Of a stretch of 64,000 bases of DNA, positions 15,173 through 16,631 are shown one piece after another. Location: assembly GCF_015240255.1 (NCBI RefSeq), contig NZ_CP061205.1, forward strand, positions 3,520,501 to 3,584,500, read 5' to 3'. The position numbers and the translations under genes were made by a program. The number at the start of each line of letters is the position of its first letter. The first letter of the stretch is position 1. The notes under the pieces were generated by a model that had not been told where the DNA came from, ran no database searches, and worked only from the letters and a program-made list of their open reading frames with translations. Source of the DNA: Kordiimonas pumila (GTDB lineage Bacteria; Pseudomonadota; Alphaproteobacteria; Sphingomonadales; Kordiimonadaceae).

Positions 15173-15201
15173 TAGCTTCTGGAAGCAATTTCATTGAATA
15201 C

Positions 15202-15234
15202 TAAAATTGCACACCTAAAACCAAGCGAGGTGCA
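15202..15234 (-). terminator. Terminator of the candidate small RNA
   Basis: Arms TGCACCT and AGG-TG-TGCA (one arm with a 2-nt bulge, positions 15228-15234 and 15208-15216), then ATTTTAG on the minus strand. Moderate quality: 7 bp with a bulge and a short T-run. Confidence 0.45.
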
Positions 15235-15325
15235 CAAAACAGGGGCGCCCCCCATGCCCTGTGGAACGCCCCATTCCCCCCTGTTTGTAAGCAGGGGTAG
15301 TCCGCTCACGCTTTACCGCGTCAGT
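15202..15325 (-). ncRNA. Candidate small RNA with its own promoter and terminator
   Basis: About 120 nt on the minus strand. The predicted start is 7 nt after a TATTAT box, and the end is at a hairpin (15208-15234) followed by ATTTTA. Between them are GC-rich inverted repeats. These are CCCCTG/CAGGGG (6 bp, 8-nt loop), GGGGCG/CGCCCC (6 bp), and an enclosing AACAGGGG/CCCCTGTT pairing (8 bp) that can fold the core into a rod. No reading frame covers it. It is much more GC-rich than its flanks. It is separate from rpmJ, which has its own promoter 30 bp further on. I could not identify the family; 6S RNA is a thought only because of the rod shape. Confidence 0.5.
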
Positions 15326-15331
15326 TTCATG

Positions 15332-15360
15332 ATAATACCATAACTGGACTATTATGACAA
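15332..15360 (-). promoter_or_regulatory. Sigma-70-type promoter of the candidate small RNA
   Basis: On the minus strand, TTGTCA (15355-15360) and TATTAT (15332-15337) are separated by exactly 17 bp, with five of six matches in each box. It points into the GC-rich structured block. Confidence 0.6.
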
Positions 15361-15506: not shown

Positions 15507-16631
15507 ATGCTTGTTTCAAGTTCATTCGACAGCGGCAACATAGACGTTATTTCTGTAGAATCGCCAGCGGATATACGCCTTAAAATCAGGGCAGACCATC
15601 AGTCTGAATTTCTTCAGTGGTTCCATTTTCGCCTTTCTGGTGTTGCTGATACTGCATGCACCCTAACGATAGAAAATGCAGGGGATGCTGCTTATCTTGA
15701 TGGCTGGAATAACTATAGCGTATGCGCCTCATATGACCGCGAAACATGGTTCCGCATTCCCACAAGCTATAATGGCAAAGAGCTTACGTGGCACTTTGAA
15801 CCCGATTCCGATAGCATTTACTTTGCCTACTTTGCACCCTATTCGATGGATCGTCATGCCGACCTGATTGCAGATGTCGCGGCTTCACCCATAGTGAAGA
15901 CACACGTTCTTGGCCACACTCTAGACGGGCAGGACATGGACCTAGTTGAAGTTGGTTATGGTCCAGAAGGTCGCAAAAAGATATGGCTCTGCGCTCGCCA
16001 GCACCCAGGCGAAACCATGGCTGAATGGTGGATGGAAGGCGCGCTTGAATTTTTGCTGGATGAAGACAACCCTGTTGCTAAAGGCCTCCTTGAAAAAGCA
16101 CATTTTTACATTGTGCCCAACATGAACCCTGATGGCTCAAAACGTGGGCATTTACGGACAAATGCGGCAGGCGTAAATCTGAACAGAGTGTGGGAAAACC
16201 CAAACCCAGCAACAGAACCAGAAGTATATCTGGTTCGCAAAAAAATGCTTGAAACTGGTGTTGATTTCCATATGGATGTACACGGGGATGAAGCCCTGCC
16301 TTATAATTTCTTGGCAGGCTTCGACGGCGTACCGTCAGCCAAAGAAGCACGGCTGGATCTATTTTACAAATACCGCGATACACTGGCATCTATAACACCA
16401 GACTTTCAAACAGAAAAAGGCTATCCGGTTGATGTGGCAGGCACTGCCAACATGGGTGTATGCACCAATTATATGGCAGAAGCTTTCAAATGCCCTGCCA
16501 TGACGCTTGAAATGCCATTTAAAGACAATGCAGACCTGCCCGACACACTCTATGGCTGGAGCCCAGAACGGTGCCGTAATCTAGCCATTGCATGCCTAAA
16601 TGCCCTGTACCAAATAGTAGACGAGCTTTAA
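15507..16631 (+). CDS. M14-type zinc carboxypeptidase (cytosolic carboxypeptidase-like)
   Basis: A 374-residue protein. An N-terminal beta domain (1-115, including QWFHFRLSG and AYFAPYS) is the one seen in cytosolic carboxypeptidases of the AGBL/CCP type. A peptidase M14 domain follows. Zinc ligands: H166 and E169 in RQHPGETMAEWW, and H259 in VDFHMDVHGDE. Substrate-binding NPDG and NLNRVWENP segments are present, and TLEMPFKDN carries the likely catalytic Glu. No signal peptide, so it is probably cytoplasmic. Bacterial substrates are not established. Its stop overlaps the apt stop on the other strand through a shared TTAA. Confidence 0.88.
   Translation: MLVSSSFDSGNIDVISVESPADIRLKIRADHQSEFLQWFHFRLSGVADTACTLTIENAGDAAYLDGWNNYSVCASYDRETWFRIPTSYNGKELTWHFEPDSDSIYFAYFAPYSMDRHADLIADVAASPIVKTHVLGHTLDGQDMDLVEVGYGPEGRKKIWLCARQHPGETMAEWWMEGALEFLLDEDNPVAKGLLEKAHFYIVPNMNPDGSKRGHLRTNAAGVNLNRVWENPNPATEPEVYLVRKKMLETGVDFHMDVHGDEALPYNFLAGFDGVPSAKEARLDLFYKYRDTLASITPDFQTEKGYPVDVAGTANMGVCTNYMAEAFKCPAMTLEMPFKDNADLPDTLYGWSPERCRNLAIACLNALYQIVDEL

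Follow-up and report, generated by a model that had tools for sequence, protein, structure and literature searches.

The block upstream of rpmJ in Kordiimonas pumila is very probably an RNA gene. Its most probable explanation, to which a probability of about 0.6 is assigned, is an independent non-coding small RNA gene of about 90 nt, the product of which would act in trans together with Hfq on distant mRNAs, with rpmJ transcribed separately. The sequence comparisons described here support a predicted promoter of its own, three helices with a hairpin at the 3' end, a constant association with rpmJ and a single copy. The locus is contained in the window, the whole stretch of 64,000 nucleotides that was analysed, and is read from the minus strand. 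It is followed by its conserved downstream neighbour rpmJ, encoding ribosomal protein L36 (14897-15022, minus strand), and is flanked on the other side by a divergent M14-type carboxypeptidase-like gene (15507-16631, plus strand), the family of which was named from sequence. The putative promoter of the RNA, P1 (15332-15360, minus strand), consists of the -35 element TTGTCA at 15360-15355, a 17-nt spacer, and TGG with the -10 element TATTAT at 15337-15332. It resembles a sigma-70 promoter with an extended -10, TG being located ahead of TATTAT. The putative promoter of rpmJ itself, P2 (15144-15172, minus strand), reads TTGACA-17-TATGTT. Both had been proposed in an earlier note on this DNA and are present as described, P2 also being conserved among homologues, where TTGACA is located 5' of rpmJ in 32 of 33, mostly with 17-nt spacing. 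It should be noted that three matches to the bare promoter consensus occur in the region against 2.8 expected from shuffles, which is chance level, and the sequence alone is therefore insufficient for the case. Conservation raises both predicted promoters above chance. The spacer of P1 measures 17 nt in 32/33 homologues, mostly in the form xTGACA-17-TAnnAT, the assignment being less certain for L036, L065, L067 and L062, where the match is weak or offset, and for L037, with 18 nt. The contrast in base composition claimed by the note is also borne out, GC amounting to 0.575 at 15200-15319 versus 0.38-0.45 in both flanks.

The RNA is predicted to span about 91 nt (15236-15326, minus strand), its start being derived from the position of the -10 element and its end from the terminator. 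Hairpin 1 (15305-15324), CUgACGC...GCGUgAG, is paired in 98% of cells in 25 sequences and displays few two-sided changes. It is followed by the single-stranded linker CGGACUA (15298-15304), which is altered in distant members. Hairpin 2 (15278-15297), with 96.6% of cells paired and two-sided changes in four pairs, presents the unpaired loop CUWWCNAA, which is near-invariant within the family and retains its core UWWCNA in nearly all distant members. Hairpin 3 (15242-15272), the putative intrinsic-terminator stem, is paired in 97.2% of cells with two-sided changes in 8 of 10 pairs, and is followed by the U-rich tail UGUUUUG (DNA TGTTTTG, 15235-15241; these features are all on the minus strand), which is weak in some relatives. 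At one locus (L011, genome G019), an extra stem is inserted in the loop of the terminator hairpin, the stem bases being kept. In most homologues the -10 element precedes the start of the RNA model by a near-constant 3 nt, so that the start of the RNA is placed near 15326. The U-rich tail lies directly 3' of hairpin 3 in relatives, which places the end near 15236. The earlier note had let the RNA end at 15202, about 33 nt too far, in a terminal hairpin followed by ATTTTA. Such a hairpin does exist (about 15235-15202, minus strand), but it is species-specific, lies outside the conserved RNA and has no counterpart in relatives in the intergenic alignment, the conserved 3' hairpin being that at 15272-15242 with TGTTTTG. 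Its spacing of 30 bp to the rpmJ promoter is likewise to be revised, the distance from the RNA end to the -35 element of rpmJ being about 63 nt. The terminal hairpin is conserved, and a run of at least four consecutive U is found in about 15 of the 33 homologues, with six rows read by hand. At least four U within 9 nt after hairpin 3 are present in 23/33 by pattern and in 29/33 after hand reading, since the pattern misplaced the stem end in those six rows, which were read from the alignments and all pass. In all species, hairpin 3 presumably forms the 3' end of the RNA.

The block folds more stably than shuffles do, with z values of -2.4 for 15330-15190 and -3.1 for 15326-15235. In alignment A3, in which 26 model matches were aligned simply by sequence and which contains 22 pairs, 97.3% of cells are standard pairs, and pairing drops to 40-59% when the partners are slid by 1-3 columns. 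Compensatory cells in A3 number 64 versus 18.5 in shuffles, and two-sided changes are observed in all three helices, most of them in hairpin 3. In alignment A4, to which diverged members were added and in which variable loops were trimmed, 90.7% of cells are paired versus 38-51% when slid. A4 was laid out with structure in view and leans towards structure; the difference between paired and slid partners far exceeds this bias. The three predicted helices are thus supported by compensatory changes. The same comparison bears on whether the block encodes a short peptide instead of a non-coding RNA, which is highly improbable. Open reading frames of 46-49 codons do extend across the block in Kordiimonas pumila, but changes among relatives preserve the structure, and one-base insertions and deletions in the linker and loops break the reading frame through the RNA, so that a coding function was rejected.

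A DNA search of 59 relatives recovered the block in 12, each time between rpmJ and the divergent M14-type carboxypeptidase gene. With the covariance model R1, the count of genomes carrying the promoter-RNA unit rose to 18 of 19 in Kordiimonas and to 7 of 10 in the rest of the family, becoming 8 of 10 after a later model added G025; named records assign the group to Kordiimonas / Kordiimonadaceae, and one homologue (L053) is that of K. gwangyangensis. Conservation of the block beside rpmJ in related genomes, at which the earlier note had suggested looking, is therefore found. The three family genomes lacking the RNA are G002 and G024, where the assembly has no rpmJ, and G026, where rpmJ is present and the RNA absent. 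In 33/33 aligned loci, the RNA occupies the same strand and the same position upstream of rpmJ. Inspection of the DNA 5' of rpmJ elsewhere in the order revealed diverged copies in three more families (G029, G042 and G052 in f2; G045 and G054 in f6; G040 in f7). When 18 rpmJ loci were searched with R2 unfiltered, the six top-scoring matches were those of G029, G042, G052, G045, G054 and G025. No copy was seen upstream of the rpmJ genes inspected in f3, f4, f5 and f8, the f4 locus L081 being left out, and many rpmJ genes of the order are without the RNA. In class-wide scans with R3, a model that includes four diverged-type sequences besides L039, all matches of at least 39 bits are rpmJ-linked copies, and none of the weaker matches that were checked is near rpmJ. 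Beyond the order, R2 found no further copy in 385 genomes of the class, and the matches to R3 stayed at background level, at or below about 35 bits, the checked loci not being near rpmJ. Within the order, one f5 match of 38.5 bits (G162) was left out of the locus checks. No credible further copy was found in the genome of Kordiimonas pumila itself, where the next best R1 match reaches 14.7 bits (E 6.3) and R3 yields two matches of 26-27 bits, within the background range. The plasmids searched gave no match.

The RNA does not correspond to a catalogued family. Rfam 15, with 4227 families including SRP RNA and curated alphaproteobacterial sRNAs, gave no match at the gathering score in the window or in ten homologues, and at E up to 10 only two chance matches to eukaryotic families appeared, both outside the RNA. 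The identities suggested earlier, namely 6S, SRP or a known alphaproteobacterial sRNA, thus find no Rfam match in the block. The 6S RNA (RF00013) of the genome is encoded at a separate locus about 2.7 kb before the start of the window (G000:C1:3517639-3517799, plus strand), where it scores 55.7 bits, above the gathering score. Both are bacterial small RNA genes with a promoter of their own, but the block RNA has about half the length of 6S RNA and forms three separate hairpins. With the Hfq-associated trans-acting sRNAs of Alphaproteobacteria it shares a predicted sigma-70-type promoter of its own, a length of about 90 nt, stem-loops of which the last is a putative intrinsic-terminator hairpin, and a single intergenic copy; it matches no Rfam family by sequence or structure, and is a candidate member of this group. 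A literature search returned no report of the rpmJ-adjacent RNA and no small-RNA study on Kordiimonadales and relatives. In Candidatus Pelagibacter ubique, the pntA motif, composed of two serial stems with an especially conserved second loop, adjoins rpmJ, and in marine metagenomes it is consistently located 5' of pntA (PMC2704228). Compared by description only, the motif and the block RNA have in common serial stems with a conserved second loop, the rpmJ neighbour and an alphaproteobacterial host, but the motif lies 3' of rpmJ, before pntA (PMC2704228), whereas the block RNA lies 5' of rpmJ. Among bacterial small RNAs, which are a known kind, the block RNA forms a new family; in position it differs from the pntA motif as described. 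It represents a small-RNA family outside Rfam in Kordiimonadales and relatives, for which the near-invariant hairpin loop and the fixed linkage to rpmJ provide direct experimental handles. The case also shows that a reading of raw sequence can reveal a probable RNA gene overlooked by annotation based on Rfam.

As for its action, a sigma-70-type RNA polymerase would start near 15326 and halt at the terminator hairpin ending near 15236, rpmJ would be transcribed from its own promoter, and the RNA would base-pair in trans, with Hfq, with distant mRNAs. Contact would most plausibly be made by the hairpin 2 loop, which is conserved, and by the GUGAGC-linker region. Hfq is encoded in the genome, and for an RNA of this type Hfq-assisted pairing is thus to be expected by default; we infer that it is expressed, binds Hfq and acts in trans. 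Two findings count against this explanation. In many relatives only a weak U-run follows hairpin 3, so that read-through towards rpmJ is possible there, and the linker, the natural seed, varies in distant members. The drift of the linker is also in keeping with an RNA that binds protein, by titration or as a scaffold, rather than pairing with other RNAs, the loop CUWWCNAA of hairpin 2 then serving as the recognition site. That this loop is near-invariant though unpaired, with a covarying stem, points in the same direction, but no known protein motif was identified and a pairing seed explains the conserved loop equally well. Protein binding is, with the cis role considered below, one of the two main alternatives, but appears an unlikely mode of action.

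Separation of the small RNA gene from rpmJ is indicated by the intergenic alignment, in which a conserved island formed by promoter and RNA is succeeded by an unconserved gap and then by the conserved rpmJ promoter. Within the family, pairwise identity averages 0.64 in both P1 and the RNA and falls to 0.14 in the gap before P2; the values for P2, the rpmJ leader and the upstream flank are 0.59, 0.46 and 0.28, respectively. The gap between the RNA and the rpmJ promoter varies from 36 to over 200 nt, mostly 40-115. In two relatives (L012 / L028, L056) it measures 185 and 237 nt, which suggests that DNA was inserted between the two units. Base pairing between the RNA and the leader of rpmJ was considered and rejected. 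The duplex energy is -36.7 with its own leader versus -35.9 (sd 6.6) with the leaders of other species and -35.4 with shuffled ones, and no co-variation is seen, the linker changing while CCGC in the leader stays. The contrast in identity and the lack of special complementarity to its own leader favour a separate gene. Our results here agree with the earlier note, which had described a promoter-RNA-terminator cassette and not simply the leader of rpmJ: P1 is conserved, three hairpins covary, P2 is separate and the intervening DNA is not conserved. A cis element of rpmJ is nevertheless to be weighed, in which a second upstream promoter and a structured leader or attenuator, with occasional read-through of the terminator, would let the RNA control L36 synthesis. 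The linkage to rpmJ on the same strand is strict in every homologue found and the U-tracts are weak in many members, so a cis role keeps a minor share of the probability. It is rendered improbable by the conserved promoter of rpmJ 3' of the RNA, by the unconserved intervening sequence of variable length, by the covariation of all three helices as one set, by the absence of the RNA at many rpmJ genes of the order and by the lack, in the alignment as judged by eye, of any conserved way for hairpin 2 to pair alternatively with the terminator stem. More doubtful again is a role of the RNA as a partner in ribosome biology, for example in sensing or tuning the synthesis of L36 or of ribosomes via the near-invariant hairpin 2 loop, which, if true, would explain why the RNA has stayed beside rpmJ across the order despite changes in its own sequence and in the neighbour on its other side. 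The 5' leader of rpmJ (15143-15023 of the window, minus strand) carries a conserved block of its own, CCGCCGCCAATGGATTCGAGGAATGACGGATTCGTCGTTCC in relatives, which forms a 9-pair hairpin with two-sided changes in 6 pairs across 12 relatives and is possibly an L36 leader element.
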